From: Rhodoblastus sphagnicola
Lineage (GTDB): Bacteria; Pseudomonadota; Alphaproteobacteria; Rhizobiales; Beijerinckiaceae
Assembly: GCF_002937075.1 (NCBI RefSeq)
Contig: NZ_NHSJ01000100.1
Coordinates: 1-64,000 of the forward strand
Length of the DNA: 64,000 nucleotides
Direction: 5' to 3'
The notes under the pieces are model-generated. The model ran no database searches and was not told the origin of the DNA. It was given only the letters and a program-made list of their open reading frames with translations. Positions 4,019 through 46,704 of the stretch are shown here, in pieces. Each line of letters opens with the position of its first letter. The stretch's first letter is position 1. The translations under genes were made by a program, and so were the position numbers.

Positions 4019-4039
4019 GCCCCGTCCGGCTTGCGCCGG
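4019..4039 (+). terminator. 5' half of a Rho-independent terminator split by prophage insertion
   Basis: Arm 1 is GCCCCGTCCGGC (4019-4030) and the loop is TTGC (4031-4034); then comes GCCGG, the first part of arm 2, where the prophage inserted. The continuation is at 46700-46717: GCCGG again, then GCGGGGC and six T residues. Rejoined, the two arms pair over 12 bp with one G-U wobble and are followed by T6. This would have ended the operon of the 3735-3989 gene. Confidence 0.75.
4035..4039. repeat. 5-bp target-site duplication (GCCGG), copy 1
   Basis: The five bases immediately outside the TGTA end at 4040 are GCCGG, identical to the five bases immediately outside the other end (46700-46704). 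Five base pairs is the Mu-family duplication length. Confidence 0.9.
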
Positions 4040-4086
4040 TGTAGCGCGGCAAATCAGATGGCCAAATGCGTCAGATCATTTGGCCA
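4040..4086 (+). other. Prophage right end with transposase-site repeats R1 and R2
   Basis: R1 is the terminal site (4040-4064; TGTA, then CGCGGCAAATCAGATGGCCA). R2 is TGCGTCAGATCATTTGGCCA at 4067-4086. The TGGCCA edges of R1 (4059) and R2 (4081) are 22 bp apart, as R1 and R2 are in Mu. Together the two sites create a 10-bp inverted repeat (4059-4068 with 4077-4086). A weaker R3 may lie just inward, but it is not clear. Confidence 0.85.
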
Positions 4087-4116
4087 GACCCTCGTTTTTG
4101 CAAAAGGCCCCTTGAG

Positions 4117-4923
4117 CTAATTGCTCACAATGATCTCCCGCGCCGGTTGCTGTCTGCCGCTCCCCGGAGCCGAATAGGTCAGGGAAACTGCTTCGACCTT
4201 GAACCGTCTGTAGACTCGGCGTGTTTCTGGCAGGTCGTTTATCGTCAGGATGAAACGGCCTTCAATGCGGCTTAAAGCCTCCGCCATGTGCTCGTGCTGC
4301 GCTGGATCGAATAGGTCCTTCCCGTAATAGTCTTCCGTGCCGAAATAGGGCGGGTCGAGGAAGAACAGCGTGCGCGGACGGTCCCAGCGGGACAGAAATG
4401 CCGCCCAGTCCAGGCATTCGATCGTCACGCCGGCGAGCCGCGCATGGATGGCTTCGAGCGCCACCCCCAGCTTGATCACGTCGAACCGCGCCGGGCCGCC
4501 CATCTGGACGCCGAAGGTGCGGCCGGCGACCTTGCCGCCGAATGAGAGCTTTTGCAGGTAGAGAAACCGCGCCGCGCGCTCCAGATCGGTAAGGCTGTCG
4601 GGGGTTTGCGCCCGCAGCCGCTCGAACTCCGCCCGGCTGGTGAGCTGCCATTTCAGCATGTCCATGAACGCCTGGTAATGACGCTGGAGGACACGAAAAA
4701 AGATTGCGACATCCCGGCTCATGTCATTGATCACTTCGCAGCGCGGCGCGGTTTCGCGGCGGAAAAACACTCCGCCCATACCGACAAACCCCTCGGCGTA
4801 GACCTCATGAGGAGTCGCGGCGATCTTTTCCGCCAGCCGGCTCGCAAGCTGCCTTTTGCCTCCGATATAGCCAGCCGCCGGCTTGGCGCGCGGGGCGGCT
4901 CTGAATTCCTGATGATCTTCCAT
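4117..4923 (-). CDS. D12-class DNA adenine N6-methyltransferase (phage Dam)
   Basis: This 268-residue enzyme methylates adenine N6 in DNA using S-adenosylmethionine. Motif I is YIGGKRQL (SAM binding, about residue 20), followed by EGFVGMGGVFF. The catalytic motif IV is DPPY in FFLDPPYFGTEDYYGK. START ATG 4923 (MEDHQEF) fits the family N-terminus; upstream in-frame codons are poor coding sequence. It is the last gene before the prophage right end, the place that mom occupies in Mu, so it probably protects phage DNA against host restriction or marks packaged DNA. Target sequence unknown. Confidence 0.85.
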   Translation of the reverse strand: MEDHQEFRAAPRAKPAAGYIGGKRQLASRLAEKIAATPHEVYAEGFVGMGGVFFRRETAPRCEVINDMSRDVAIFFRVLQRHYQAFMDMLKWQLTSRAEFERLRAQTPDSLTDLERAARFLYLQKLSFGGKVAGRTFGVQMGGPARFDVIKLGVALEAIHARLAGVTIECLDWAAFLSRWDRPRTLFFLDPPYFGTEDYYGKDLFDPAQHEHMAEALSRIEGRFILTINDLPETRRVYRRFKVEAVSLTYSAPGSGRQQPAREIIVSN

Positions 4924-5066
4924 TGCACAAACATTCGTGATCGCGCACCATCGCACGGCCGCCGTAGGCCAGTGAGAGGGGCAGCGTGATGTGCTGATGC
5001 GTTGCGCGGGTTTGGTCGCCAAACTCACCCCGCGTCCGGGTTTAGGCCCGGCCCTTCTCGCAGCGG

Positions 5067-6083
5067 TCAACCGCTCGAGTCCTCTTTCGCCGGCGGGTTG
5101 GCCGCCTTCACCTCGCAGTCGAAGCTGATCTCGATCCCCGCGTGGAAGGCCGTGCTCTTGTGCTTGATCGTCCAGTCCCGATCGTCGTCATCACCGAAGC
5201 CGCTCGTGGTGATGATTCCGCCCGCCGCCGGCGCGATGATCCCGGCCCGCAGCGCGCCCCGGAAATGCGCCTCGTTGCGCTTGAAGTGCCCGGAATGCGC
5301 CGAAGCCGCATTCTTGGCCTCGGTTTCCGTCCCGAAAATGTGCGGAAACACATAGTCCGGCCCGTTGCTTTCATCCCCCGCCGAGAATGTCTTGCGCTTG
5401 CCCGACGCCCGATCGACCATGCTGGCCTTGCATTTGCCGCGCTTGGGCCGTTCCTTCGCGCCGAGCGACCAGCCATCGTGCAAATCGTTGGGCGTCACCA
5501 CCAGCGCCGGAATGTCCGCGCCCGAGGCGCTCTGGCCTTGGCCCTTGGGCACGATCACCAGCCGGCCCTCGGCCACCTTGGCGATCGCGCCGACGCTCCG
5601 CGCCAGCCTGGTGGCGAAATGCATGTCGGATTCGCCGTGCTGGGCGACCACCTTCTCGATCTTGATCTGTGCGATCGAGGCGTGGACGGCGGCGGCCAAC
5701 CCGTTGTCGCCGGCGAGTTGTTGGAACACGTCGCCATAGGTTTTCGGCGCCTTCCAGTTGCGGTTCTTCTGGGTTTTTAGCGTCTTGTCGAGCTGTGCGG
5801 CCTGCGCCGTAATGTCGAACACCGCCGCCTCGCCGTGCTTGGTGACCTCCTGGACCTTGAAACTGCCCTGTTTGGCGATGCCGGTTTCCCGCCAGCCGAG
5901 CACGACCTCCAGCACGGCGCCCGTCGCCGGCTTGCTCAGCCGGCCGTCGTAGTTGGACACCTTCAGCCGCAGCGTGTCGGTTTTCTCGCCATCGGTCTCA
6001 TCGATCCGGGCCGCCAGCACGCGGCCGGCGAGGCGCCCGCTGATGTCCTGGCCGTTCAGCCAGATTTGCACAATTGGGTTCAT
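5067..6083 (-). CDS. Tail protein D / baseplate hub (P2 gpD-like late control D)
   Basis: The 338-residue protein matches the phage late control D / P2 gpD hub family, which forms the baseplate hub that docks the spike and the end of the tube. Visible family features are MNPIVQIWLNGQDIS at the start, WKAPKTYGDVFQQLAGDNGL and the HGESDMHFATRLARSVGA domain core. A C-terminal block of KSAMVDRASGK type is followed by an Ala-rich region with TSGFGDDDDRDWTIKH. The start is ATG 6083, directly after the gpX stop. It sits at the end of the tail operon as gpD does in P2. Confidence 0.85.
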   Translation of the reverse strand: MNPIVQIWLNGQDISGRLAGRVLAARIDETDGEKTDTLRLKVSNYDGRLSKPATGAVLEVVLGWRETGIAKQGSFKVQEVTKHGEAAVFDITAQAAQLDKTLKTQKNRNWKAPKTYGDVFQQLAGDNGLAAAVHASIAQIKIEKVVAQHGESDMHFATRLARSVGAIAKVAEGRLVIVPKGQGQSASGADIPALVVTPNDLHDGWSLGAKERPKRGKCKASMVDRASGKRKTFSAGDESNGPDYVFPHIFGTETEAKNAASAHSGHFKRNEAHFRGALRAGIIAPAAGGIITTSGFGDDDDRDWTIKHKSTAFHAGIEISFDCEVKAANPPAKEDSSG

Positions 6084-6084
6084 G

Positions 6085-6309
6085 TCAGTCCCACAGGCTG
6101 AATGTAGCGAGGGTTTTGGCCGGGGCCGGCGCGATATAGGGCAGGATGATCGTGGTGGCCTGCGGCAGCACCGGGCCGAGATCGGCGAGGCCGGGATTGG
6201 CGGCGAGCACGGTTTCGGCGGCTTGCGCGACCGAGGCGCCGTAAAATCCGGCGCAGATCGCGTCGAGCATCTCGTTTTGCCCGGTGACATAGGTGGTTGA
6301 GCCGCTCAT
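6085..6309 (-). CDS. Tail protein X (P2 gpX-like, LysM-type)
   Basis: This 74-residue protein is of the P2 gpX family. GFYGASVAQAAETVLAANPGLADLGPVLP is the LysM-like core in which most gpX proteins show N-P-G-L, and it ends in a short IILPYIAPA segment. It lies between U and D as in P2 and helps to join the tail tube and baseplate. The stop is 1 nt before the gpD start. Confidence 0.85.
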   Translation of the reverse strand: MSGSTTYVTGQNEMLDAICAGFYGASVAQAAETVLAANPGLADLGPVLPQATTIILPYIAPAPAKTLATFSLWD

Positions 6310-6319
6310 ACCTCATTCC

Positions 6320-6739
6320 TCACGCTGGCCAAAATGCGAAAATGCCGCCGCCGAAATCGTCGGCCGCGCTGAATTTAAGGGTGTATTCGACCTTTTGCGG
6401 TCGGCCGTCTGGCAGATGACTGGAGGCGCGATATTCGACCTCCTCCAGCCGGAACAGCCCGAAGGCGTCGCCGCCGCCGGAAAACAGCATGTCCACCGCG
6501 CCGGCGCCGGCCGCTTGCTGCATGGCCACGATCTGGCCAAACGGGTCTCCGTCCATGGCGGCGGGGTAGATCGTGCCCTTGACGGTCAAATCCTCCTCGG
6601 CGGGGCCGAGATATTGCCCCGGCGGCCGGCGGCCGAACACGGGCGGTTTTGACCAGCGCCCCGCCCATTTGTGGGTCAACTCCTCGAACGAGGCGGCGCC
6701 GGCGTTGAAGGAATAATCGCCCCAAATCAGCAGAGACAT
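6320..6739 (-). CDS. Tail protein U (P2 gpU-like)
   Basis: This 139-residue protein resembles P2 gpU (phage_P2_GpU). Its N-terminus MSLLIWGDYSFNAGAASFEELTH, and its DLTVKGTIYP and VEYRASSHLPDGRPQKVEYTL segments, fit the family pattern. GpU lies at the head-proximal end of P2-type tails. It follows the tape measure with a 1-nt overlap, keeping the P2 order T-U-X-D. Confidence 0.85.
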   Translation of the reverse strand: MSLLIWGDYSFNAGAASFEELTHKWAGRWSKPPVFGRRPPGQYLGPAEEDLTVKGTIYPAAMDGDPFGQIVAMQQAAGAGAVDMLFSGGGDAFGLFRLEEVEYRASSHLPDGRPQKVEYTLKFSAADDFGGGIFAFWPA

Positions 6740-9126
6740 CAGCGGTGCTCCGGTCCGTCATGGAGCGCGCCGCTCGACGGGCTGAATGAATGGCCGCCGC
6801 CGCCGGGTCCGAGGCCGCCGAGCACCTGTTTGAGCTTCATCGCCTTTTCGATCGCCACGTCGAACGAGGCCGTATCGATCTTCGGCGAGAATGTCCCGTT
6901 GATCTGCTGCAGCACGGAATGGGCCTCGTTGCCCTTGGTCACCGCCAGATCGAGCTGGCTTGCGTCCACGTTGGGCGTCACCTGCTCGCCATTGAGCATT
7001 TGCAACGTTTGGATGGCGCTTTGCCCCCGCTGTTGCACTTCCTGGAGCGCCTGCGTGGCGCTCGCAAGATTTTCGGGTGTTGGAAGAGGCAGGCCTACCG
7101 TGCCGGGCTTGCCGCCTGGACCAAACCACGGCTTGTCTGTCGGCGATGGGAAGGGGATAGCATTTTCCCCCTTGTTGCCAGGGACTGAGCCAAGCATCTC
7201 GCGGTTGGCGGCCCCCGCCGCCGCAATTATGGGAATTCCTGCGAGCGCAGCCAGCGTCGTCCAAAGGGGGAGACCACCAAGTGCGCCCAAAGGTGCAGCG
7301 CCCTTCGGCAGCGGGCCTTTTGTTGGCAGGCCAGAGCTAAGCGCCAGCTTGCCCGCAGCCGCGTCCAGCGCAGCCGCAGCTCCGGTGAGTTGCGTCGCCG
7401 CTACGGATAGGCCGAAGCCCTTGTAGAGTTGGTAAGCCAGATAGCCGGAGCCAGCGAGCGCGCCAGCGCCCAGGCCGGCGCCGATCCCCGCCGCAGCAAT
7501 GGGATGCTTTGACGCCGCCTCGGCCAGGGCGTTAATGCCGGACGTGATCTTGTTGAGCCCTGCGGCGATGGCGGGCATGGCGCCCCGCGAGGTGGCGGCG
7601 CTGAGGTCATTCAGCGATTTGGTCAGCGCGGTGAACGAGGATGCCGCCTCCTGCGCCTGATTGGCGGCCGCCTGTTCCGCATCCGCCGCCGCCTCCAAAT
7701 TCCTCTGGTGCTGCTTGATCGCCTCCTCCTGCTGGAGAAGCTTGGAGACGAGGTTGGCGGCTGTCCCTGGCAGAGCCTTGTTGGCGAAGGCTATCTGATC
7801 CTCAAGCGATTTGATGCCATTGGCCTGCATCGCCGGCTTGAAAACCTCCCAGACCCATCGGTCCGGGTTGGTGGCGAGCAGATCGTCGCCCTTGAGTTTA
7901 CCGCCGTAGCCAGTGACCTTGCCGGCCTTGTTTCGGTGGATTTTGCCATCGTCGGCGAACAGACCTATGTCGCTCAGGAGTTGCGATGCCGTTCCCCGAT
8001 GCTCCAAGCCGCCGCGCAGCGTCTTCACCATCATCGACAGCGCGTCGCCGGCCGAGGAGCCGCGCAGCTCTTGGATCAGGCTCGGCATGGTGGCGTTGAT
8101 GAAATGGTCGGACAGCGTGCCGCCCGCCGACTTGGAATATTTCGCGGCCTCGTAAATCTGTTCCGGGGTGATCGTCTTGCCGAACACCTGCATGGCCTTC
8201 ACCTGACCGTCCAGGTAGGCCTTGAACTGTTCGGGGCTATTCATGCGGCCAAGGGACTCGGCGGCTTTCACGATCAGCGCGAGTCCGCTGTTGTCGACAC
8301 CCATGCCTTTCAGCACGGAGCCCGCGCGCGCGAGGTCGTTGATGATGTGGAACGTTTCTTCGGGATGTTTCACCGCCGAGCGCGCCTCGGTGAACAGCTC
8401 CTCGATCTCCGTCACGCCCATGTTGGGCGCGCCGCGCTTGGCCTCGATCGCGGCCTTCTGGATGCGCGCGATCTCGCTGGCGGGGATGCCTGCGTTGAGC
8501 GCCTTGACCTCGACATGCTGGCGCTCGGCGCCGGCCTTGATGGTCTCCTCGCCCATATGCCAGATCGAATGCGCCGAGACGGCCGAAGCGGCCCCGCCCA
8601 GCATCAAGGCGCCCGCGCCATGATGCCGCTGCTCGCGCTCGATGCGCGCCTGTTCGCGTCTTTCGCGCGCGGCGGCGGCTTCGCGGTCCCGCTCAGCCTT
8701 CACATAGGCCGCCGACCGCTGCCGCTGCAGGCCCGCCTGCGCCGCCGCCTGCTCCCTGGCCGACCGTTCGATCGCGGCGACCGTCCGCTGTTCGCTGGCG
8801 ACCACGCGCTCGTTGGCGGCAACGATCTCATTTGCCGCAGCGGCGGCGCTTTCGGCCTTGGCCCGTTCCGCCGCCTCGACCGCGCGCGCGGCCTCCATCT
8901 CGGCCTTCTGCGTCGCCAGCATTTCCTCGCGGCGACGGACGAGGCCTTGCGACGCCCGGTCGAACGTCGCCTTGTCCCACAGATCCTTGGTGGTGCCGGT
9001 GGTGCGGATCGTGTGCAGCGCGTCCATCTCGCGCTTGAACTTTTCCGCCGCCGTCTCGGCGTTCTTCGCCGGCCCGGAGAACTGATCCACCAGCTTGAGG
9101 ATCATCGAGACGGACATGTCAGTCAT
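6739..9126 (-). CDS. Tail tape measure protein
   Basis: A 795-residue protein sets tail length. The N-terminus (LVDQFSGPAKNAETAAEKF) is typical of TP901/P2 T-type tape measures. A long Ala/Glu/Arg-rich helical stretch (residues ~60-180) comes next, then a globular TP901-like domain with GVTEIEELFTEARSAVKHPEE. Central hydrophobic, Gly/Ala-rich segments (for example IAAAGIGAGLGAGALAGSGYLAY) are the usual membrane-active parts. It starts just after the E' frame ends (9136), the P2 arrangement. ATG 9117 is an alternative start. Confidence 0.9.
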   Translation of the reverse strand: MTDMSVSMILKLVDQFSGPAKNAETAAEKFKREMDALHTIRTTGTTKDLWDKATFDRASQGLVRRREEMLATQKAEMEAARAVEAAERAKAESAAAAANEIVAANERVVASEQRTVAAIERSAREQAAAQAGLQRQRSAAYVKAERDREAAAARERREQARIEREQRHHGAGALMLGGAASAVSAHSIWHMGEETIKAGAERQHVEVKALNAGIPASEIARIQKAAIEAKRGAPNMGVTEIEELFTEARSAVKHPEETFHIINDLARAGSVLKGMGVDNSGLALIVKAAESLGRMNSPEQFKAYLDGQVKAMQVFGKTITPEQIYEAAKYSKSAGGTLSDHFINATMPSLIQELRGSSAGDALSMMVKTLRGGLEHRGTASQLLSDIGLFADDGKIHRNKAGKVTGYGGKLKGDDLLATNPDRWVWEVFKPAMQANGIKSLEDQIAFANKALPGTAANLVSKLLQQEEAIKQHQRNLEAAADAEQAAANQAQEAASSFTALTKSLNDLSAATSRGAMPAIAAGLNKITSGINALAEAASKHPIAAAGIGAGLGAGALAGSGYLAYQLYKGFGLSVAATQLTGAAAALDAAAGKLALSSGLPTKGPLPKGAAPLGALGGLPLWTTLAALAGIPIIAAAGAANREMLGSVPGNKGENAIPFPSPTDKPWFGPGGKPGTVGLPLPTPENLASATQALQEVQQRGQSAIQTLQMLNGEQVTPNVDASQLDLAVTKGNEAHSVLQQINGTFSPKIDTASFDVAIEKAMKLKQVLGGLGPGGGGHSFSPSSGALHDGPEHR

Positions 9127-9135
9127 CTCAAGACC

Positions 9136-9602
9136 TCAAGTTTGGGCGAGACGGGCGCGGGCGCGCTCCCAGAGGCGCGCCAGCAGGGGCAGTTTCAGCC
9201 CGCGCAATTCGGCGAGCGTGTAGGGGTAGCAGAGACCGACATCGAGAATAAGATCGTCGAAACCGCCGGGGCCTAGCCCCACAAAAGCTTTCCCAGCGCG
9301 ACATCCAGCGCCTTGGCATCGACCGAGGCCATTTTTTGCAACGCCTCGATCGGCAGGCCAGTGAAAGCCGTCAGGAGCCCGAATGTGTCGAGTTTCGCAT
9401 CCTTGCGGGTGGAGCGCTCGTAATCGGCGCCCGTCGGGATGCGCAGGGCCACTTGCTTGTACGTGACGCCCTTCAGCTTGAACGGCCGCTTCAGCGCGAC
9501 CGTCTCGCCGTCGAACGTCTCACCGGCATCGAAATCGACGATTTTAGGCTCGTCCGCAGCCGCGCCGCCCATGGTTTCCTCGCTCATGAAATCCTCGTTC
9601 AA
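9136..9602 (-). CDS. Tail assembly chaperone E-E' fusion made by -1 frameshift
   Basis: Zero-frame E is translated to GGA AAG (9293-9288); a -1 slip then continues as AFVGLGPGGFDDLILDVGLC and on through LAELRGLKLPLLARLW to TGA 9136-9138. The added 50 residues are clearly coding. The heptamer G GGA AAG is the one lambda uses for gpG-T. A 7-nt spacer (CTTTTGT) and a GGGGC-TAG-GCCCC hairpin follow, and the hairpin contains the E stop. In P2- and lambda-type tails the fusion is a tape-measure chaperone made in small amounts. The sequence signals are seen; the frameshift itself is inferred. Confidence 0.8.
9268..9294 (-). promoter_or_regulatory. Programmed -1 ribosomal frameshift signal
   Basis: Slippery GGGAAAG at 9294-9288, spacer 9287-9281, then a 5-bp stem (9280-9276 with 9272-9268) whose loop TAG is the E stop codon. 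The frame, spacing and stem all fit -1 frameshifting into the E' frame. Confidence 0.75.
9273..9602 (-). CDS. Tail assembly chaperone E (short frame)
   Basis: A 109-residue protein of the P2 gpE-like tail assembly chaperone family (Phage_TAC). Its N-terminal half is acidic; the middle has LKRPFKLKGVTYKQVALRIPTGADYE and a helical C-terminus ending ALGKLLWG. It precedes the tape measure, as gpE does in P2. A GGGAAAG slippery sequence near the 3' end (9288-9294) allows a second, longer product (see 9136-9602). Confidence 0.85.
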   Translation of the reverse strand: MNEDFMSEETMGGAAADEPKIVDFDAGETFDGETVALKRPFKLKGVTYKQVALRIPTGADYERSTRKDAKLDTFGLLTAFTGLPIEALQKMASVDAKALDVALGKLLWG

Positions 9603-9623
9603 TCCCGTTTAAAGCGCCCAGGC

Positions 9624-10130
9624 TCAGAGAGCATTCGCGATCCAGGTATATTCGTCCGTGCCGCCGATGATGTATTTGTTGGCCTCGACGTCGATGTCGT
9701 AGATCGTTGTGCCGTCGATGATGAGCTTCAGCGCGTCGAGCGAGGATTTCACGGTGAGCTTGGCAAGCTTGCCCGCCTCCCAGCCGCCCGGATCGAGCGT
9801 CATGAACTGCCCGCGACAGGTCAGGCTGGCCGTGTGCGTCGCCCCGCCGTCGCCGTCGAGCGCGGCCGTGTTCGACAGCGTGATGCTCTTCTTCGAGAAC
9901 AGCCCGGCCTGTTTGATCACCTGGGGATCGTAGGAATTGAAGGTGACCTCCCACTCGAATTCCTTGTAGCCCATGGCGATCTGGCGCGTGCCGAGCATGC
10001 CGCCGCCGCGGAACTTCTCCATGACCTTTTCGATTTTCGGCGTCGAGCATTTCTCGGTCGAGCCGAGCTTGCCCACGCCGTCAACATAGCTGTTGAACGC
10101 TTGCAGGACATAATCGAGCTGGTTGGACAT
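9624..10130 (-). CDS. Major tail tube protein (P2 FII-like)
   Basis: This 168-residue protein belongs to the P2 FII tube family. Family-type features are an N-terminal EKCSTPKIEKVMEKFRGGGM region, a short FEWEVTFNSYDP strand and FMTLDPGGWEAGKLAKL. The ring-forming protein builds the inner tube. It lies between the sheath and chaperone E, as in P2. Confidence 0.9.
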   Translation of the reverse strand: MSNQLDYVLQAFNSYVDGVGKLGSTEKCSTPKIEKVMEKFRGGGMLGTRQIAMGYKEFEWEVTFNSYDPQVIKQAGLFSKKSITLSNTAALDGDGGATHTASLTCRGQFMTLDPGGWEAGKLAKLTVKSSLDALKLIIDGTTIYDIDVEANKYIIGGTDEYTWIANAL

Positions 10131-10140
10131 AAGGGGCTCC

Positions 10141-11361
10141 TCAACCGCCGTTCAGGCTGGCGGCCACCGCCGTCACCAGCGCCGTGTAATAATCCTGGTT
10201 GCGGTGCGCGTAGTTCTGGATGTGCTCCATCGGCGCGACCGGCTCGGGGTCGAAATCCCACGCCCAGATGCCCTGGCTGGTTTGCTGCGGCGTGTTGCGC
10301 TCAGGATCGAGCCAGACCTTGCCGCCAACAATGGCGCCGAGCTTGGCCAGATAATCGAAATAGCCCTGCATGCTCGCGGCCATCTCGCGCAGCAGCTGCA
10401 CGGAGGGCGGCTTGTCCACCGCCCAGGCCTGCACCGCCTGCACCGCCTCGTAGATCATGTCGGCGCAGGTGCGCACCGCCTCGAACACCCATTGGGGATC
10501 GTTGGAACAGGTGCCGTTGCCCCAGCGCCGCCAGCCGGGATAGCCGTTGTCGGGCGCCGACAGCGTAAGGATGATTTGCTCGGCGTTGAGCAGGTTGGCC
10601 TGGTCGTTCGGGCTGTCGGTGTAGTCGATCGGCGAGGATACGCCGCCCACGCCATTGTAGGCGAAGTTGGACGGCGAGAACCAGAATCCGTTTTCCAGAT
10701 GCACGCGGGCGGTCAGGCCGGCGGCCGACGCCGAGGTCGGGCGCGCCACATAGGCGTTGGCCGTCTCGTCCCACACTTCTACGCTGGGATAGAACACGTT
10801 GATGCGGGCGCTGGTGAAATCGTTGCGATAGGCGATGGCGTCGCTGTCGGAGGTCGAGGGGCAATCGGCGTAGATGCGCCCGCGCAGGTCGGTTGCGATC
10901 GGCAGCAGGGCGGAGACGACGGGATTGACGCCCGGCGCGCCGCCAGCCACGGGACGGTCCGAGGTGAAGCCCGGCGCGATGAAAGTGCGTGGCTTCACGC
11001 CGGTCAGCGCGAGCGCGTTGCGGAAGGCGTTGACGCCGGTTTTTTGCGCAACCGATCCGACCAGGTCGGACAATTGCGAGCCGCGATCGGCCGTGCTGGC
11101 GACACGCACCACCACCACGGCGGCTCCGGCTTCCTCGTAAATCTGCGAGACGGAGTTAAGCAGCGTTCCGGACGTCCCCAGTTTCGCGGCGAGGCGCGGC
11201 GTGGCCGCGAGCAGGACCGGGGTGTTGAGCGGAAAAACGTCGGGGTCGGCGGCGTCGGCGGTGCCGATCAGGCCGATCGGCGCGGAAGCGGCGGTTTTTA
11301 CCGGCCGAATGCCATCGTTCAGTTCGATGGTTTCGGTGCCGTGCAGGAATTGCGTGGTCAT
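10141..11361 (-). CDS. Tail sheath protein (P2 FI-like)
   Basis: A 406-residue contractile sheath protein. Typical features are FLHGTETIELNDGIRPVKT at the N-terminus, an AGAAVVVVRV strand and VSALLPIATDLRGRIYADCP. A conserved GYPGWRRWGNGTCSNDPQW block and a C-terminal ALVTAVAASLN strand for inter-subunit handshakes are also present. Its start follows a terminator (11451-11489) and the late dyad (11426-11442), so it heads a separate tail transcription unit, as the tail genes do in Mu. Confidence 0.92.
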   Translation of the reverse strand: MTTQFLHGTETIELNDGIRPVKTAASAPIGLIGTADAADPDVFPLNTPVLLAATPRLAAKLGTSGTLLNSVSQIYEEAGAAVVVVRVASTADRGSQLSDLVGSVAQKTGVNAFRNALALTGVKPRTFIAPGFTSDRPVAGGAPGVNPVVSALLPIATDLRGRIYADCPSTSDSDAIAYRNDFTSARINVFYPSVEVWDETANAYVARPTSASAAGLTARVHLENGFWFSPSNFAYNGVGGVSSPIDYTDSPNDQANLLNAEQIILTLSAPDNGYPGWRRWGNGTCSNDPQWVFEAVRTCADMIYEAVQAVQAWAVDKPPSVQLLREMAASMQGYFDYLAKLGAIVGGKVWLDPERNTPQQTSQGIWAWDFDPEPVAPMEHIQNYAHRNQDYYTALVTAVAASLNGG

Positions 11362-11425
11362 GAGCGCCCGCGTCTGGTTGAGAAATCTCAGGCCAGACGT
11401 TGCCCGCGCGACCCCGCGCCTTCCA

Positions 11426-11442: not shown

Positions 11443-11450
11443 GGAAACAA

Positions 11451-13674: not shown

Positions 13675-13676
13675 GG

Positions 13677-37803: not shown

Positions 37804-37815
37804 GCGTTGCCTCCC

Positions 37816-39225: not shown

Positions 39226-39625
39226 CGGAGCCTCCCTCGTCGTCGCGCTTCGACAGCCGCGAATGCGGGCAGCCGGAGCGGCAGGCGCGGGAAATCCGCG
39301 CCCGGAGGGAAGACGAGCCGATCCGCCTCATCTTCTGTTCGGAGAGGCAGCGGTCGCGGGTCAGTTCGCCGAGAACGGGGCAATCCACCGTCTCGTTCAT
39401 CAGCGCGCCGCGCACTCTTGCCTCGACCGTGCCCATGTCGCCGGGATAGGTCCCGTTGATGACGCCGGTGACCACGGCGGGCGAATAGCCGAGACGCCGC
39501 GCCACCTCGGAGCCGGACGAGCGGTTTGCCTCCTCGGCGAGGACGCGCACCCAATCGGGCAGCGCCGCCCCCCAGTTGCGTTCGGCGTTCCCGACAAAGT
39601 TGGTCCGGGATTTAGACGAGGCCAT
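39212..39625 (-). CDS. Early HTH protein (137 aa)
   Basis: An HTH of the LacI/Xre kind is visible (GSEVARRLGYSPAVVTGVIN, then GTYPGDMGTVEARVRGALMN). The C-terminal part has Cys residues (VDCPVLGELTRDRC, RACRSGCPHS) that might bind metal. Resembles regulators common beside MuB in Mu-like phages. Confidence 0.6.
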   Translation of the reverse strand: MASSKSRTNFVGNAERNWGAALPDWVRVLAEEANRSSGSEVARRLGYSPAVVTGVINGTYPGDMGTVEARVRGALMNETVDCPVLGELTRDRCLSEQKMRRIGSSSLRARISRACRSGCPHSRLSKRDDEGGSDVQS

Positions 39626-40238
39626 TGCGCACCTCGCTTTCGCCGACGATTTTCTGGAGGTTTTGGTCGAACACGAAGTCGGCCTGCAGCAGCTTCGGCG
39701 GCAGCGGCCCCGTGTTGCCGGTGCGGGTCAGGTTGTAGCGCGCGGAGACCGAACCACGGCGGGTCCGGATCGGCGGCTTGACCACATGCACGATCCCGGC
39801 GCGAACCAGCGACCGAACATATCTTTGCACCGTGTTTCGAAGGACAACGACCTCTTCGGTGGAGGACGCCAGCGCCAGCTCGTCGGTTGTCCACGAGCCT
39901 TTCAGCATCCGCATCGTCTGCCAAATTTGCTCAGTGACCAGCCCGTAAGCGCCATCGGAGGTTGGCCGCCGCAGGCCCGGCCCCTTGGCGCGTGGACGCT
40001 TGACGGCGTAGACGTGCTTGGGCTTTCCGGCGAGTGAAGGCACAGAGCCCACCACGATCAATTCGCCCTCATTCCGCATGGCGCGAATCCAATTCCGCAC
40101 GGTGGCGTAAGCCACCCCGCAGGTGCAGCCGGCCAGATCGGCGGTCGTGAATCCCTTCGATCCAAATTCGCAGGCTGCCTTCCAATAAAAGGCGGGCGAC
40201 CGCATGAGGGAAACCTTGAGAGAGTGTGTCATAGCCAC
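39612..40238 (-). CDS. Winged-helix early protein (208 aa)
   Basis: Two HTH-like segments (FTTADLAGCTCGVAYATVRN, then TTDELALASSTEEVVVLRNT and VQRYVRSLVRAGIVHVVKP) suggest a tandem winged-helix DNA-binding protein. It follows MuB by a 4-nt gap. Its role in replication or regulation is inferred from position. Confidence 0.6.
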   Translation of the reverse strand: MAMTHSLKVSLMRSPAFYWKAACEFGSKGFTTADLAGCTCGVAYATVRNWIRAMRNEGELIVVGSVPSLAGKPKHVYAVKRPRAKGPGLRRPTSDGAYGLVTEQIWQTMRMLKGSWTTDELALASSTEEVVVLRNTVQRYVRSLVRAGIVHVVKPPIRTRRGSVSARYNLTRTGNTGPLPPKLLQADFVFDQNLQKIVGESEVRNGLV

Positions 40239-40242
40239 CCCC

Positions 40243-41001
40243 TCACAGCTTGCCGTTGCGCATGGCCGGCGCGTCGCCGGTCGCGATCAGAGCGCCGTAA
40301 TTTGCGAGGGTCAGCCCACCTGCCGGCTGGTTAGTCGCGGCCCAGTCGCGCGCATTGGCCAAATTGGTGACAATGCGTCGGGCGCGTCCCTGCGTCTTTT
40401 CTCGGATGGCGACGATCAGCGCGTCCTCGATCGGGGTGTCGCCGAGGATCATCTGCGCCAGCGCCCGCGTATCGTCCTCTTCACAGGGCTGAGCCTGGAC
40501 GAATTTCAGGACGCGATTGTGCACGCGCTCGATGCGCACGAGCAGTTGCGGCAGCGCCTCCTCGCCGATCAACAGCACCGGCACTTGCGACTTGTCGGCG
40601 ATCTCGCGGACGATCTCGACATAGCCCTTCGTGACCATCTTGTCGGCTTCGTCGATGATCAGCGGACGGTCGGGTTCGTCGCCGAGCAGCCGCACCACCT
40701 GCTCGACCATATCCGCGACCGAACCGCGCGGATTCACGATTCCCAATTCATAGAGAATGTTGGTGGCCAGCGTTTTCGAGGTCCAGGACGATCCGACCTC
40801 AACATAAATTCCGCGCATCAAATTGCGCACGTAGGCGGCGGCGTAAGTCTTGCCGTAGCCGGAAAATCCTGAAAACACGCCGAAATTCGGCAGGCCCGGC
40901 GACCGGTCCTTAACCAGCATGGCAAGTTCGACGAAGGCGAGAACATTGCTGAGCACGATCAGCGATTGTCCGGTATTGACGTTTTTCGGCCTATCTGCCA
41001 T
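40243..41001 (-). CDS. Transposition protein B (MuB-like AAA+ ATPase)
   Basis: A 252-residue ATPase. Walker A is GFSGYGKT (residues 45-52) and Walker B PLIIDEAD (113-120). An arginine-rich KTQGRARRIVTNLANARDW segment supports the AAA+ fold. MuB binds target DNA, controls target choice and immunity, and delivers targets to MuA. It lies directly after muA on the same strand. Confidence 0.9.
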   Translation of the reverse strand: MADRPKNVNTGQSLIVLSNVLAFVELAMLVKDRSPGLPNFGVFSGFSGYGKTYAAAYVRNLMRGIYVEVGSSWTSKTLATNILYELGIVNPRGSVADMVEQVVRLLGDEPDRPLIIDEADKMVTKGYVEIVREIADKSQVPVLLIGEEALPQLLVRIERVHNRVLKFVQAQPCEEDDTRALAQMILGDTPIEDALIVAIREKTQGRARRIVTNLANARDWAATNQPAGGLTLANYGALIATGDAPAMRNGKL

Positions 41002-41062
41002 TTTCTTCTCCTGTAAGGTCTATTTCGAAATCCGAAGCCTCTGAGGTTCCAGCTCAGGGGCT

Positions 41063-43186
41063 TCATTTTTTCGCGGATTGCTCCGCGAAAGCCTGCACAG
41101 CGACCAGGGCGCGGTACTCCGACCCGGCGCGGTAGCCCGCCAGCCAGCGGGCATCCTCAATGCTCAATGCGATCCCGGATTTTTCCTGTTCCTCCATCTG
41201 TTTGGCGCGCGCGAAGCGCTGGTGGCGGGTCTCGGGCAGCACCGCCAGAACGGGCAGTGGCGCGATCGTGATGCGCTCGATGTTTTGCGCGGGTGACAGT
41301 GCGGCAGGCGCCTGAGCCTGCCCGTCGATCGCGGCGCGCGCCGCTTCGAGCGAAGACGTGGAATAGGTTTCGGTGGGACGCGGCAGCGCAATCAGCTTGC
41401 CCGCCGCCTCGGCCTCGCGGCGGGCGATCTCGGCGGCGAGCGCCGGCTTGTTCTTCTTGAGGTCGCGCAGCTCGCGGCGGATTGGCGCGGTGCGCTCGGC
41501 CAGCAGCGCTGCCTGCGCCGTCTTGGTCTGCGCCAGCAGTTTCGACGGATCGACGCCCGCCATCTCCGGGCACACGCCCTCGCCGAGAAATCGCAGACCA
41601 TCCTCGCTAAAGCAGAAGATGCGGCCGAGGTCGGCGGGGTCCATGCGCACGAACACGCGCGTCCCCGGCAGCACGGCGGGAACCATGTAAACCGAATTAT
41701 CGGTCCTCACGCCCTTCTTGGAAACCGTGCGCACACCGTCGTTGCCGGCGATCGGAGCCATCAGCAAATCGAGCGCATGGACATCGTCGATCTTGCGGAT
41801 GCTACCCTGGTACGAAGCCGCCTTCTGAAACGGCGACATCCGCCCCATGTCATCGCCGCCATGTTTGCGATGCTCGTAGCGCACGCCCGCCCAATGGTCG
41901 CAAGCCGCCTGAAACGCCTTGGCGTCGAGCGACACGTCGAACACTTTGTCGTCGGACATGCCCATGCGCTCAGCGAAGCTCCGGCGCTCTTCGATCACCT
42001 TGCGCTCGCCGACATTGTGGCCGACGAAGCCCGGCAAATCCGACGCGCAATCGTGCTGAAACGTCTTGATGACGCGCTCGACGTGCGCCTTGGCCTTGGG
42101 GTCATAGGCCCTGGCGACATTCACCTCGATCTTGAGCGCATGCTCCATCAGCGCGACGGTGCGCCGCGCCTTGAAATCCGAACCATTGTCGGTCTTGATC
42201 CGCTCGGGAACGCCCCACGCCAGCAGCGCCCGGCGCAGCAGCAGGCACACAGCCTCCGAGCGCGGCGTCTTGGTGACGTAAATGATGGTGCGGCGGGAGA
42301 AACGGTCGATGCAGGCGTAAATCTGATGCCGCCCGGAGGTCAGCATCACGTCGGCCGGCGAGGCGTCGATCAGCCAAAGCTCATTGAGCCGCGAAACCGC
42401 GTTGGAGTTGGCGCCGGAAATCTCATATTTCGATTTGTAGGCATCCGGATTGGTGACGCAGCTGAGCGCGACCTTTTCGACGTCTTTAAGCGCGGTTAAA
42501 GCGCGCGAAACCGTGACCACGGACACGTCAATCTCGGGGAACTGCGCCCGCAAATAATCGTGCGCCGACTGCGCTGAGGAATGCGGCTTGAGCGCGATGT
42601 AACCCAGCAGCCAGCCGCGCACTTCCGGCGCATCCAGCACGCCCTTGCCGCGCCGCCCGACGCCGCGATCGACAGCGAGACGCCCGATCTCTCCGGCCGC
42701 GCGCAGGTCGCGCCAACGCCGAAGCGAACGCGGCGACAACTGCTTCACCGCCGTGCGGACCCAATCATCCACCTCGACCTTGCCGGCATTGTAGTGGGCG
42801 CAGAAAATGGTGTCGGCGGTCTGCCGAGTCATCGCGCCGCCTTTGGCGATCCGGTCGGCGGCGCAAACCAGCGCGAGCCGCGCGTCGCGATGTTCCAACG
42901 CCGCCGCATTCACCTGCTCCGGCTCGAATGCCTCGCCGAGCAGCCGGTCCTCCTCCGCCACCACCACGCGCCCGGTCGCCTTGGCGACATAGGCCGCGAG
43001 CACGGCCGGCGGCAGCAGGTCCACATGATATTCCACACCTCCGCCGCGCTTCTGGCGGTCCCGGCTCAACCCCGAACGCTCCGCCCAAGCCTCGCGCGCA
43101 GCCAGATCGTCCCATCCCTGACGGGTGGAAGGGAAGCCGGGCAGCGCCAGCACCGCAAGTTCGGATGTGGTCAGCCAGGATTTCAT
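41063..43186 (-). CDS. Transposase A (MuA-like DDE transposase)
   Basis: A 707-residue DDE transposase from ATG 43186 (MKSWLTTSEL). The start has an HTH (TTSELAVLALPGFPSTRQGW) like Mu A domain I. Catalytic residues are D274 (WLIDAS), D333 (IKTDNGSD) and E370 (AHVERVIK), close to D269/D336/E392 of MuA. A mu-transposase C-terminal domain follows (SVYMVPAVLPGTRVFVRMDP). It cuts and joins the phage ends at the repeats near 4040 and 46699. The enzyme and its binding sites are on one element. Confidence 0.93.
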   Translation of the reverse strand: MKSWLTTSELAVLALPGFPSTRQGWDDLAAREAWAERSGLSRDRQKRGGGVEYHVDLLPPAVLAAYVAKATGRVVVAEEDRLLGEAFEPEQVNAAALEHRDARLALVCAADRIAKGGAMTRQTADTIFCAHYNAGKVEVDDWVRTAVKQLSPRSLRRWRDLRAAGEIGRLAVDRGVGRRGKGVLDAPEVRGWLLGYIALKPHSSAQSAHDYLRAQFPEIDVSVVTVSRALTALKDVEKVALSCVTNPDAYKSKYEISGANSNAVSRLNELWLIDASPADVMLTSGRHQIYACIDRFSRRTIIYVTKTPRSEAVCLLLRRALLAWGVPERIKTDNGSDFKARRTVALMEHALKIEVNVARAYDPKAKAHVERVIKTFQHDCASDLPGFVGHNVGERKVIEERRSFAERMGMSDDKVFDVSLDAKAFQAACDHWAGVRYEHRKHGGDDMGRMSPFQKAASYQGSIRKIDDVHALDLLMAPIAGNDGVRTVSKKGVRTDNSVYMVPAVLPGTRVFVRMDPADLGRIFCFSEDGLRFLGEGVCPEMAGVDPSKLLAQTKTAQAALLAERTAPIRRELRDLKKNKPALAAEIARREAEAAGKLIALPRPTETYSTSSLEAARAAIDGQAQAPAALSPAQNIERITIAPLPVLAVLPETRHQRFARAKQMEEQEKSGIALSIEDARWLAGYRAGSEYRALVAVQAFAEQSAKK

Positions 43187-43190
43187 GGGA

Positions 43191-43319
43191 TCAGCGAGAC
43201 CGGGGAGAGCGGGAGCGCGCGCGCCGCTCAAGCATGAGCGCGCCAAAAATCACGGCCGCCGCCACTGCCCAGGGCGCGAGACAGAACACGAGCAGGAGAA
43301 AGCGGTCGGGGGAGATCAT
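43191..43319 (-). CDS. Small single-pass membrane protein (42 aa)
   Basis: ATG 43319 overlaps the previous stop (ATGA). Hydrophobic helix (FLLLVFCLAPWAVAAAVIFG) with a basic tail rich in Arg/Ser. The position, 4 nt before muA, shows it is part of the early operon. Function unknown. Confidence 0.5.
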   Translation of the reverse strand: MISPDRFLLLVFCLAPWAVAAAVIFGALMLERRARSRSPRSR

Positions 43320-43657
43320 TTCGCGGCGATCTCCGGGGAATTGAGATCAGCCACCGCCGCCATGATTGAGAAAAAGCGGTCGATCGGCGGCAATGTGCGG
43401 CCGGTGGAATAGTCCTTGAGTGTCCCGCCTGGAATCCCCGTCCTCTGGGCAATTTGCTGACGCGGTTCGGCCTCGCCGAGAACCTCGCGCAAGAACTCGG
43501 CGGCGTCGACGCTGAGCGAAGCCAAGATTTTCGCCTGATGGACAATGCCGACCTGCTCATCCTGCCTGACCAGATCACGTAGGCGCGCAAGCTCCGCCTC
43601 AATTTTGCCGATGGAGGCATAGATCGCGAGGCGGCCATCGTCGGAAGGGGAGCTCAT
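43316..43657 (-). CDS. HTH regulator sharing a motif with the repressor
   Basis: A 113-residue protein. Residues 80-95 (LKDYSTGRTLPPIDRF) are nearly identical to two repeats in the phage repressor (LKDYFTGRTTPPIDRF and LVDYQTGRTSPTVDRF). An N-terminal coiled coil (IYASIGKIEAELARLRDLV) could mediate dimers. It may modulate the same operators. Overlaps the ParB-like and small membrane genes. Confidence 0.65.
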   Translation of the reverse strand: MSSPSDDGRLAIYASIGKIEAELARLRDLVRQDEQVGIVHQAKILASLSVDAAEFLREVLGEAEPRQQIAQRTGIPGGTLKDYSTGRTLPPIDRFFSIMAAVADLNSPEIAAK

Positions 43658-44499
43658 TTCTTCGCTCCCCTGGTCGCCGCGTAGGAGAGTCCTGCGAATT
43701 CTAGAAACTGCGAGCGTGTGATCTTGTCGGCCCGGTCCCAGGCGCCGACCAGTTCGGCATAAATCCGCTTTTGAGGCGGCTCGATCGGCGGCGGCTCAGC
43801 CAGACCCACAGCAACCAGCGCCGGCGCGATGGCCTTGGCCCGCCCGTCGCGGATCGCAGCCGCGATCTGGCGCTGTTCATCGGCGGGCCGCTTCGCTAGC
43901 GCCAGCAATTCCCGCTGATTGTCTTCAATTGCCGAACCACGCAGGTCACGGACGGCCTGTTCGTCCAACTTTGAGATTTCGAGCAGATACTGGATGGCCC
44001 GCTCGGAGACATCGAGCTTACGGGCAATGTTCTTGGAAAACCGTTCGCCGAAGGTTCGCAAACTTTGCGATTTTTGAACCGCATGTGAATTCCGCGACTT
44101 ACCATTTATCTTGTCGGGATAGATGCGGTCATAGACGCCCTGGCGGGCGGCGACGAACATGGCGAGATCGAGCTGCTTCAGCTCGCCGCGCATCAGATTT
44201 TCGTCAATCTCGGCAAGCTGCGCCTGATCGTCATCCATATCTCGGATGATGACGTGGCCGTTTTCACCGACCTCAAGCCGTTCGATTTTCAACAGCCTAA
44301 AACATTCCAGGCGATGTAGACCGAAGATCAGCCCATATTCGAAACCGTCGCACAGCTTCGGTCGCACAAGAATCGGAGAGCGCGGCTTGCCAGCATTGTC
44401 CCGGATTGACGGGGCGATGAATTCGACCACGTCCGGGTCAAAATCGCGCAGTCGATTGCGCGTATCAATGCTGGTGATATCAATGAAAGGAGGAGCCAT
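43654..44499 (-). CDS. ParB-like N-terminal domain protein
   Basis: A 281-residue protein from ATG 44499 (overlapping the ner stop). The ParB/Srx-like domain shows RPKLCDGFEYGLIFGLHRLE (G-x-H-R-x motif) and LAEIDENLMRGELKQLDLAM. After that is a KorB/ParB-like HTH region (SKNIARKLDVSERAIQYLLE). It may bind DNA at operator-like sites; it lacks a typical partition partner (no ParA seen). Confidence 0.7.
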   Translation of the reverse strand: MAPPFIDITSIDTRNRLRDFDPDVVEFIAPSIRDNAGKPRSPILVRPKLCDGFEYGLIFGLHRLECFRLLKIERLEVGENGHVIIRDMDDDQAQLAEIDENLMRGELKQLDLAMFVAARQGVYDRIYPDKINGKSRNSHAVQKSQSLRTFGERFSKNIARKLDVSERAIQYLLEISKLDEQAVRDLRGSAIEDNQRELLALAKRPADEQRQIAAAIRDGRAKAIAPALVAVGLAEPPPIEPPQKRIYAELVGAWDRADKITRSQFLEFAGLSYAATRGAKK

Positions 44500-44780
44500 C
44501 AGGACGCCTTTTTGCGGGACAACAGCGCATTTTCGGGTGTAGCTTCGGCCAGCGGCGCCGGGTAAAAGCTCGGCCAAAGTTCGTGAAGCGGTACGCCGAT
44601 GAATTTGGAAATCGCGACGTTCGCACGCGGATGGCGCTTACCCAGCGCCCAATGCATGCTTTTCGGCGCTAGGCCGATGTTGCGACCCATCTCCGAGAGG
44701 GTCGAACCACGTTTTCGCACCGCAGCGATGATGTCGGCGCGATGCCAGCCGGAGGGAACATGTGAGGAAGCGGTCATCAC
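44499..44780 (-). CDS. ner: Ner-like transcription regulator
   Basis: A 93-residue protein with the Ner/Nlp pattern: WHRADIIAAVRKRGSTLSEM, GRNIGLAPKSMHWALGKRHP, then ANVAISKFIGVPLHELWPSF. Ner of Mu shuts down early transcription and repressor expression. It is divergent from the repressor gene across a 77-bp region with repeated ATCACC/GGTGAT half-sites. Confidence 0.88.
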   Translation of the reverse strand: MMTASSHVPSGWHRADIIAAVRKRGSTLSEMGRNIGLAPKSMHWALGKRHPRANVAISKFIGVPLHELWPSFYPAPLAEATPENALLSRKKAS

Positions 44781-44866
44781 CTAAATATCACCCACAAATC
44801 AGTTATGGGTGATTATTCGCAAGCGAACGAGATAACGTCAAGCGGAAACCATCACCCATGGGTGAT
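44776..44866. promoter_or_regulatory. Operator cluster between Ner-like gene and repressor
   Basis: Half-sites are ATCACCT (44776-44782), ATCACCCA (44787-44794) and TGGGTGAT (44806-44813). A perfect 16-bp palindrome ATCACCCATGGGTGAT lies at 44851-44866 and spans the repressor ATG (44858). They are the obvious candidates for repressor and/or Ner binding. A palindrome at the start codon would allow autorepression. Confidence 0.75.
44812..44841 (-). promoter_or_regulatory. Candidate early promoter (Pe)
   Basis: On the minus strand: TTGACG (44841-44836), 18-nt spacer, AATAAT (44817-44812), reading towards ner and muA. The -10 overlaps the TGGGTGAT half-site (44806-44813), so repressor binding there would block it. 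Confidence 0.5.
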
Positions 44867-45898
44867 TTATTGAAAAACGAGCATGATGATAACGTCGCGC
44901 GGTTCGGCGCGCGCGCGCTCGACCTGCTGCGCGGAGCGTTGCAGGGAACAGCCCAACGCAAGGGCATCGCGCAAAAGACTGGAATTTCCGAGAATACGCT
45001 CAAGGACTATTTCACCGGCCGCACGACTCCGCCGATAGACCGTTTTTTCGCGATCTTACTCGCCGCAGGTCTTAGCCCGGCTGACGCTATGCGCTTCGAG
45101 GGCGGAGCGCCGGATGAATCCTCCGACATTCTGTCCCTCTCAGCAAAGCAAGTAGATTACACTGCGTGCCAGTTGAGCGCGTTATTCCTTGAAAAGCTTC
45201 AGGGTTATCTCTATATCCCAACAAAACGACGTATAATCAGTACTTTAACAAAAATACCTGAAAAAACGTTGGTGGATTACCAGACCGGTCGTACATCTCC
45301 CACGGTCGATCGGTTCTTGTTGATAGCCGCCGCTTGCGACACCGTGCCGTCGGTTTTCTTTGGCGACGCTGAAATTGTGGCGCAGCCGCCTGGAATTTCA
45401 TCCAATTTTGCCGCGCCGACATCGGCTCTCCCCGCCCCACCGATCGAGATCGTCCACATCCCGCACCTCGACGTTTCCGCCGCTGCGGGCGAAGGCAAAT
45501 TCGTCGATGTCGTCCAGGTCGAGAGCGTCATCCCTTTCCCTTATGTCTTCCTGGAAAAGCTGCTCGGCGACGATGCGGCCAGGGCGAGGCTCGAAACCCT
45601 GCGTGCGCGCGGCTCCTCGATGAAGCCGACGATCGACGATGGTGCACTGCTGATGATAGACCGCGCCCAATCGATCCTGCCTTCGGCACACTCCAAGCGC
45701 AGCAAGAGCCCGCTCGACGTTTACGTGTTCCTTCAAAAGGGAGACGTGCGACTGAAGCGCCTGCAAAGGATCGATAATGACTGGATCTCCATCCACAGCG
45801 ACAATGCTGTCGAATACCAGCCTGAAGTATTCAACCTGAAGCGCGACGGCTCCTTTAAAATTATCGGCAAAGTTGTTTGGTGGGATAATCGGCTATGA
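44858..45898 (+). CDS. LexA-like phage repressor (S24) with duplicated DNA-binding domain
   Basis: A 346-residue repressor, reading away from the lytic genes. Two similar HTH domains: residues ~20-63 (ending LKDYFTGRTTPPIDRF) and ~105-153 (ending LVDYQTGRTSPTVDRF). The C-terminal S24 peptidase domain shows a cleavage-type Ala210-Gly211 (SAAAGEG), candidate catalytic Ser254 (RGSSMKP) and Lys300 (VRLKRLQ). It would keep the phage silent and self-cleave on RecA activation, linking induction to SOS. It overlaps the downstream gene (ATGA). Confidence 0.85.
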   Translation: MGDLLKNEHDDNVARFGARALDLLRGALQGTAQRKGIAQKTGISENTLKDYFTGRTTPPIDRFFAILLAAGLSPADAMRFEGGAPDESSDILSLSAKQVDYTACQLSALFLEKLQGYLYIPTKRRIISTLTKIPEKTLVDYQTGRTSPTVDRFLLIAAACDTVPSVFFGDAEIVAQPPGISSNFAAPTSALPAPPIEIVHIPHLDVSAAAGEGKFVDVVQVESVIPFPYVFLEKLLGDDAARARLETLRARGSSMKPTIDDGALLMIDRAQSILPSAHSKRSKSPLDVYVFLQKGDVRLKRLQRIDNDWISIHSDNAVEYQPEVFNLKRDGSFKIIGKVVWWDNRL

Positions 45899-46368
45899 AG
45901 CATGCTCTCTTTGCATTCGTGATGTTGCTTTCATCTTCTTGTTTTGCGGCGCCTACGTTTAAGGCTGACGAATTCGCAACGGCTTTCAACGAAGCCGCGA
46001 GAAAGCTTAAAATCGATACCCGCTTTGCTCTCCAGCAGTGCGCCAAGGATGATCGAGACACTTGCACCTATCAGGCCAGTGAACATGTCGCCGCGTTAAT
46101 CGTCAAAAGGGCGTCCGGCCTGACCGGCGTCGTTATCTGGGATGGCGACTCGAAGTCGATGGCCGACTGGCTCCTATCGATCTCCGTCGCGATGGAGATT
46201 TTTTCGCCCAGCGTCGATAAAGATCAGCGCGGCGTCGCCTTAAGAACGATCATGTCCGGCTTTAAAGGTAAGGACAAGAAGGGGGAGGCGATGCTCGATG
46301 GCGAGAAATATGCGCTCCAGGTGGTGCAAGGGATGGGTCTCTGGTTTTCAATTGATCCGGCCGAATGA
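45895..46368 (+). CDS. Exported protein of the repressor operon
   Basis: A 157-residue protein with a signal peptide (MKHALFAFVMLLSSSCFA, cleaved after SCFAA). The mature part has two Cys residues (ALQQCAKDDRDTCTYQ), which could form a disulfide. It overlaps the repressor stop (ATGA), so it is co-expressed in the lysogen. It may be a lysogenic-conversion or exclusion factor; no family was recognised. Confidence 0.55.
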   Translation: MKHALFAFVMLLSSSCFAAPTFKADEFATAFNEAARKLKIDTRFALQQCAKDDRDTCTYQASEHVAALIVKRASGLTGVVIWDGDSKSMADWLLSISVAMEIFSPSVDKDQRGVALRTIMSGFKGKDKKGEAMLDGEKYALQVVQGMGLWFSIDPAE

Positions 46369-46674
46369 CCACACCGGGAACACCTTCGAGGCCCGTAAAA
46401 TTTGCATGTTGGCCCAAAACGCCAAGTCGCGCCCAATGCACTGCACTCTCCCGAATTCCGGGCAAGTCCGCCAAATCGCGGCACGCCTCGCCGCGCGCCT
46501 GACCATTTGCACCTTCCAGCCGGACTCGCCCGGAATTCGATGCCGCCGCGTCGATTCTTGGCCATTTGATCTGACACACGCCTTCGACGTAAGCTCGCCT
46601 CGCCGCCGCCCTCTGACGCCCGGTTTCCTAGGCCCTCGGCGCGCTCAATCCCACCCAATGCCGGCTAATCCCGC
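46369..46674. other. Prophage left-end region with site L2
   Basis: No coding sequence is evident in this stretch. TGGCCATTTGATCTGACACA (46559-46578) is L2, inverted relative to the plus strand and 116 bp from the terminal site L1 by its TGGCCA edge. A weaker TGACCATTTG (46500-46509) may be a half-site L3. The L1-L2 spacing is close to that in Mu (about 105). Confidence 0.7.
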
Positions 46675-46699
46675 TGGCCATATGATTTGATGCATTACA
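46675..46699 (-). other. Prophage left terminus, site L1
   Basis: Minus-strand TGTAA then TGCATCAAATCATATGGCCA, 25 bp, ends at 46699. Compared with the right end, both read TGTA..GC..CAAATCA.ATGGCCA. The next five bases (46700-46704) repeat 4035-4039. Confidence 0.9.
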
Positions 46700-46704
46700 G
46701 CCGG
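46700..46704. repeat. 5-bp target-site duplication (GCCGG), copy 2
   Basis: Identical to 4035-4039. Completes the flank of the prophage and also begins the second part of the disrupted terminator. Confidence 0.9.

Follow-up and report, generated by a model that had tools for sequence, protein, structure and literature searches.

Analysis of a 64,000-nucleotide stretch of the Rhodoblastus sphagnicola genome (contig NZ_NHSJ01000100.1, positions 1 to 64,000; hereafter the window) revealed a Mu-like transposable prophage of 42,660 bp. The element occupies positions 4040–46699, on the minus strand, with its early genes at the high-coordinate end. Its insertion, almost certainly through DDE transposition, took place between a group of imuA-imuB-dnaE2-like genes and a resident phage-like cluster, on the side of the latter's lysis genes. 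The exact ends, the 5-bp target-site duplication, the empty site in relatives and an open transposase frame with DDE-type residues are all observed directly, and related prophages show this signature too. The prophage is a previously undescribed member of the well-known Mu-like transposable phages.

Ends of the Prophage

At the right end of the phage, one copy of the target-site duplication, GCCGG at 4035–4039 (+), directly precedes TGTA at 4040–4043. At the left end, TACA at 46696–46699 is followed by the second copy at 46700–46704 (+), and TGTA accordingly starts at 46699 on the minus strand. Read inward, the two ends share 20 of their first 25 bases. The duplication is exactly 5 bp long, as it cannot be extended on either side: base 4034 (C) differs from the last base of the element (46699, A), and base 46705 (G) differs from its first base (4040, T). 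The window was also scanned for TG...CA pairs lying more than 1 kb apart and sharing 20 or more of their 25 terminal bases. Among the 26 pairs found, several of which stem from an amidase repeat, identical 5-bp flanks occur once, at the 4040/46699 pair (chance expectation ~26/1024).

Two predicted transposase-type sites are located at each end. Those of the right end are R1 (4047–4062, +, matrix score 20.3) and, 22 bp from it, R2 (4069–4084, +, 11.7); those of the left end are L1 (46677–46692, −, 13.5) and, 116 bp from it, L2 (46561–46576, −, 14.4). The matrix was built from nine of the 11 scar-bearing relatives described below, omitting G097 and G092, whose left ends are less regular. R1, L1 and L2 exceed the best site in 41 kb of interior sequence (11.8), and one of the four sites, R2, is at background strength. 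The spacing of the sites is reminiscent of that of R1-R2 and L1-L2 in Mu. Scans of the left end gave one promoter-like site (shuffle mean 1.0) and five terminator-like ones (shuffle mean 3.8), neither number being clearly different from the shuffles.

A preliminary description of this DNA had proposed TGTA ends with direct GCCGG flanks, an element of 42,660 bp, and repeats close to the ends. The bases at both junctions agree with it, the ends at 4040 and 46699 are fixed by the alignments with empty sites, and the repeats are present, with the reservation made above for R2. Its view that the duplication length and the TG...CA termini fit the Mu mechanism is strengthened by the MuA, MuB, GemA and Mu-type head genes inside the element and by the 11 of 15 relatives that are alike in this respect. 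In such a mechanism, the MuA-type transposase, together with MuB, would bind the repeated sites at the TG...CA ends, the 3' ends of the phage would be joined to the two target strands at a 5-base stagger, and the two GCCGG copies would arise when the resulting gaps of 5 bases are repaired. Both the binding and the strand-transfer chemistry are thus predicted features, as is a replicative lytic growth that would leave host DNA at the packaged ends.

Empty Site in Related Genomes

The empty site in relatives shows the insertion by comparison, beyond the pattern alone. A search with the left flank (3700–4039) covered 11 Rhodoblastus genomes and gave matches in seven: the window's own and six relatives. 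In three of these (G001, G002, G003), the alignment of the left flank extends to 4039 and that of the right flank begins at 46700, five subject bases being common to both, that is, a single GCCGG. The alignments end short of the junction in three others (G005, G009, G010), where the two flanks are at most ~270 bp apart and enclose no phage. The alignment with a phage-free strain that the preliminary description had called for therefore gives one GCCGG at the joint in three Rhodoblastus genomes; no different junction, which it had named as a refutation, was found in them. Consistently, the transposase has no match in eight of the 10 other genus genomes and a weak one in G005 and G010 (E 2e-5 and 1e-4; 16–19% of the protein).

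The genes at positions 1–3989 had been considered not to be part of the phage. Seven genes are called in 1104–3989, and six of them in G001, five in G002 and five in G003 stand beside the phage-free joint. These genes therefore do not travel with the phage, contrary to the second refutation named in the preliminary description, and their exclusion holds, with the addition that they are themselves phage-like.

Related Prophages and Alternative Origins

The transposase has a match at E 0.001 in 60 of 298 genomes of the family, and a strong one (E <1e-100) in 22. Paired regions were fetched for 16 of the latter, and 15 were tested after G122 was dropped because of contig ends; one further stretch (L078 of G159) was fetched and left out of the analysis. 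Ends were searched in two passes. The first required a 5-bp repeat and yielded an end consensus, and the second placed the ends by this consensus, ignoring the flanks. An exact 5-bp duplication was found in 11 of the 15 related prophages, all different, so that the window and these relatives present 12 different 5-mers, a different target in each insertion across these related phages. When flanks were swapped between elements (the window's and 13 of the 15 relatives, excluding G138 and G203), none of the 182 pairs exceeded 3 bp. The right end begins with TGTAGCGCG in 14 of the 15 relatives, as in the window, the search consensus itself containing TGTAGCGCG.

A B3-type transposable phage, which would make 6-bp duplications, is very improbable. 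PMC8705779 gives duplications of 5 bp for Mu and 6 bp for B3, and describes B3-like transposition genes in contractile-tailed prophages as well, a point in favor of such an origin; the duplication is, however, exactly 5 bp here and in the 11 relatives, and 6 bp in none of the 15. Even less credible is a site-specifically integrated prophage, in which GCCGG would be a short attachment core instead of a transposition scar. A 5-bp direct repeat taken alone fits either origin, but the MuA-type transposase is adjoined by MuB, the 11 scar-bearing prophages have 11 different repeats, and no integrase was recognized among the 39 of 66 phage proteins scanned against a family library (no dedicated integrase search was made).

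Several observations weigh against an insertion by Mu-type transposition. R2 does not rise above the best interior site, and the left flank has no match in four of the 11 genus genomes (G004, G006, G007, G008). The duplication is absent in four of the 15 relatives: G233 and G088 have both ends with unlike flanks, G203 has no clear left end, and G138 has neither end. The second pass of the end search is partly circular, as G092 is the only one of the 11 that was found free of the 5-bp rule; the empty-site evidence is unaffected by this circularity because it is independent of the end consensus. Finally, a comparison by sequence with solved structures matched the transposase to the N-terminal domain of MuA (1tns, E 0.013) and to TnsB (E 0.006), and not to the solved MuA core.

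The target preference CYSRG of Mu, as cited in PMC5977238, was also considered as a property of the duplications and was not retained: none of the 12 fits it fully, two fit NYSRN, and no claim is made.

The prophage could also be compared with its deposited counterpart. The last 13,434 bases of IMGVR_UViG_2831675700_000005 (44,498 bp; stretches L039 and L261) are 100% identical to window 31066–44499, and a string taken from window position 121 falls at base 120 of the stretch retrieved for this record. The record is the same prophage and, if the two are collinear, spans window 2–44499. It then differs from the element delimited here by including 4,038 bases of the neighboring cluster and by stopping 2,200 bases short of the phage terminus, so that the left end and the complete repressor gene are missing. 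The IMG/VR provirus boundaries are therefore wrong on both sides. An element extending leftward over the phage-like genes of 1–3989, as in this record, has in its favor that the genes at 1104–2152 match phage lysis, tape-measure and tail-lysozyme families, and can be dismissed as next to impossible, since phage-free relatives keep most of these genes in the same place, the duplication and the end sites sit at 4035–46704, the record stops at 44499, and a 30-base string of the true left end (window 46650–46679) was not matched exactly by any of the scanned IMG/VR contigs, which may omit records of very closely related genomes.

With its exact ends and its empty site, the prophage can serve as a reference when transposable prophages are delimited in Rhodoblastus and its family, and the right-end sequence TGTAGCGCG, being shared, can assist in placing prophage boundaries in related genomes. 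Beyond the family genomes, a search with the transposase confirmed it in viral contigs only in the record of the same prophage; in a genome-contig collection, 184 stretches matched the search pattern and none was confirmed.

Genome Organization

A simple gene caller predicts 66 proteins between the ends. Read from 46699 downwards, the early part consists of a repressor on the opposite strand followed by ParB-like, MuA, MuB, GemA, late activator and amidase genes. The head genes come next (terminase, portal, Mu F-like protein, protease, major head protein, adaptor), and the tail genes last (baseplate, fiber, sheath, tube, tape measure, hub), with a D12 methyltransferase as the final gene. Since the repressor and the early genes lie at the high-coordinate end, position 46699 corresponds to the left end of Mu. 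The placement of the element given in the preliminary description stands, with the addition that the window displays the phage reversed.

The repressor (44858–45898, +) combines a helix-turn-helix domain with an S24 peptidase domain of the CI/LexA type (PF00717, PF01381, phrog_4), and probably controls the phage; it has no match among solved structures at E 0.01. It is followed on the minus strand by the ParB-like protein (43654–44577), which matches phrog_3264 and no Pfam family, and by the MuA-type DDE transposase (41063–43246), a protein of 727 amino acids with matches to phrog_310 (4e-104), rve, Mu-transpos_C and HTH_Tnp_Mu_1. Residues D294, D353 and E390 are invariant in all 24 aligned sequences (the window's, 22 relatives and RS1). 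They were picked by motif from 10 invariant acidic columns and probably form the catalytic triad. Beside the transposase lies the MuB-type ATPase (40243–41001, −; phrog_296, 3e-46; PF13401 (AAA_22) and PF05621 (TniB)). GemA (35493–36134, −; PF06252), an MT-A70 family methyltransferase (32721–33335, −; PF05063) and a late transcriptional activator (32342–32728, −; phrog_836) come next. The activator is Mor-like, and Mor is presumably the appropriate label for it. The phage amidase (31690–32244, −; Amidase_2) is 71% identical in amino acids to the flank amidase at 1104–1649.

The head module (20668–29671, −) encodes the head-tail adaptor, the major head protein, the protease, the Mu F-like protein, the portal, and the large and small terminase subunits. 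The contractile tail module (5067–20668, −) consists of the hub (GPD), tape measure, tube (FII), sheath, fiber and baseplate J genes, the tube and hub belonging to families known from P2. Between the fiber and sheath genes, a large protein is encoded at 11602–14100, of which the part at 11602–13674 was scanned and gave BNR_2 and arabinofuranosidase-type Pfam matches. It has no match in PHROGs and is perhaps a fiber or a surface-sugar enzyme.

The last gene before the right end encodes a D12-class N6-adenine DNA methyltransferase (4117–5070, −; PF02086, phrog_56). Mu carries its mom modification gene at the matching position. A D12 methyltransferase of 56–67% identity is present in the right-end regions of 12 of the 15 relatives (one partial), and was not found in those of G027, G138 and G203. 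This protein is more alike among the relatives than the tail genes are.

Comparison with Described Phages

Among 50,697 phage records, the nearest transposases are those of Rhodovulum phage RS1 and Rhodobacter phage RC1, with 38.5% identity over 95%. Four phages were compared gene by gene with the 66 proteins of the prophage, and matches were found for 19 of them in POA1180, 16 in RS1, 10 in Aussie and eight in RR1-B. In RS1, the order of the early and head genes is also kept, and the D12 methyltransferase has no match. The Mu-like phages RS1 and RC1 are siphophages according to PMC10783043, in contrast to the contractile sheath of the Rhodoblastus prophage.

Ochrobactrum phage POA1180 (Abaiavirus) shares the most proteins of the four, including the portal (42% identity), Mu F-like protein (46%), terminase (39%), sheath (31%) and D12 methyltransferase (57%). 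It differs in its transposition genes, as the transposase query matches over 54 residues only, outside both genes annotated as transposases; its deposited record starts at the terminase. The record of Sinorhizobium phage Aussie starts with TGT and ends with ACA, and its right end TGTAGCTCG is close to the TGTAGCGCG of the prophage. Aussie also has a D12 methyltransferase near its right end, as the last but one annotated gene, and in RR1-B this methyltransferase is the last annotated gene. The transposase is nevertheless matched in Aussie over 54 residues only, and the head protein and the sheath of the prophage have no match in it. Phages of the D3112 group likewise begin with TGT and end with ACA, as stated in PMC5977238. 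No near-identical DNA was found in the phage collection for window 4040–28600, the part searched. No paper title on a Mu-like phage or gene transfer agent (GTA) of Rhodoblastus was found among the matches listed, which cover few subscription journals.

Insertion Site

When the flanks are joined in a script, the empty site forms a 12-pair hairpin around GCCGG, with one G-T pair, followed by six T. This structure is predicted to be an intrinsic terminator, the arms of which were parted by the phage: the 5' arm, the loop and the start of the 3' arm lie at 4019–4039 (+), and the 3' arm with the T-run at 46700–46717 (+).

To the right of the prophage, the genes at 46832–52333 look like imuA-imuB-dnaE2, a name given from their order. 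The first (46832–47653) has no Pfam match. The second (47577–49100) encodes a protein resembling the Y family, for which the Pfam scores are weak, one above the cut-off and the other slightly under it, and the third (49097–52333) a DnaE-type polymerase. A LexA-type box, GAAC-N7-GAAC, lies upstream of these genes at 46777–46791 (+). This motif, which we take to be the LexA box of alphaproteobacteria, occurs three times in the window (46777, 29481 and 44043). Since the strand of the phage repressor points at the imuA-like genes and the terminator is split, transcription of the repressor strand may run on into the imuA-like gene.

The Adjoining Phage-Like Cluster

A separate, resident GTA-like phage cluster has its lysis end at 1104–3989 (+), where an amidase (1104–1649), a phage tail lysozyme (1646–2152) and small proteins are encoded. 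In G001, both lysis genes end a phage-like cluster of ~36 kb (contig C29, about 827–864 kb; loci L040, L076 and L077), which contains a terminase, a portal, a protease, a protein in the capsid position, a tape measure and GTA-type baseplate genes. GTA_TIM, Rcc01698_C and TIGR02218 score above the cut-off, so that baseplate genes of the RcGTA type are present; GTA_megatron, TIGR02217 and TIGR02219 score below it.

The protein in the capsid position matches only phrog_13692, of unknown function, and no Pfam or NCBIfam family. Its gene has one match in each of the 11 Rhodoblastus genomes, and the protein is found in 41 of the 298 family genomes, where some matches are distant or partial. The gene lies 19–26 kb from imuB in seven genomes (G001, G002, G003, G004, G005, G009 and G010), and the two are on different contigs in G006, G007, G008 and the window's genome. 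A gene on the opposite strand, named hisC-like by eye from its sequence, separates the portal from the protease in eight of nine genus loci fetched (e.g., L076:18437–19495). In the ninth (L243), which is cut there, it stands next to the protease; no match was found in the other 37 of 46 loci, several of them short.

We tentatively consider, as a rather doubtful proposal, that the genes left outside the phage are part of an as yet undescribed GTA-like element found throughout the genus. The phage, with its lysin related to that of the cluster, would then lie in the terminator of this element; lysis functions may be common to both or an object of competition between them, and the split terminator may connect the phage repressor transcript to the SOS mutagenesis operon. 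In a GTA-like reading, the cluster genes are kept by purifying selection: the ratio of nonsynonymous to synonymous substitution rates (dN/dS) of five of them against G001 is 0.10–0.37, one portal match having a stop. Two observations speak against a gene transfer agent: a CI-type repressor with an S24-like match (phrog_4, phrog_6201) is encoded in the cluster, and relatives of the capsid-position protein occur at 47–49% in Chromobacterium, Acinetobacter and Anaerolineae records, as for a roaming phage. This genus-wide cluster may matter more than the prophage itself and is most worth another look.

The phage amidase (31690–32244) and the resident one (1104–1649) form an inverted DNA repeat ~30 kb apart, a possible recombination site. 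A recent capture of the phage amidase from the resident cluster was considered and rejected, as it is 69–71% identical to the resident amidases, compared to 76–78% among the residents. The portal of the cluster (L077:301–2259) carries a C-terminal match to PF15644, a papain-fold glutamine deamidase family, at residues 554–647.

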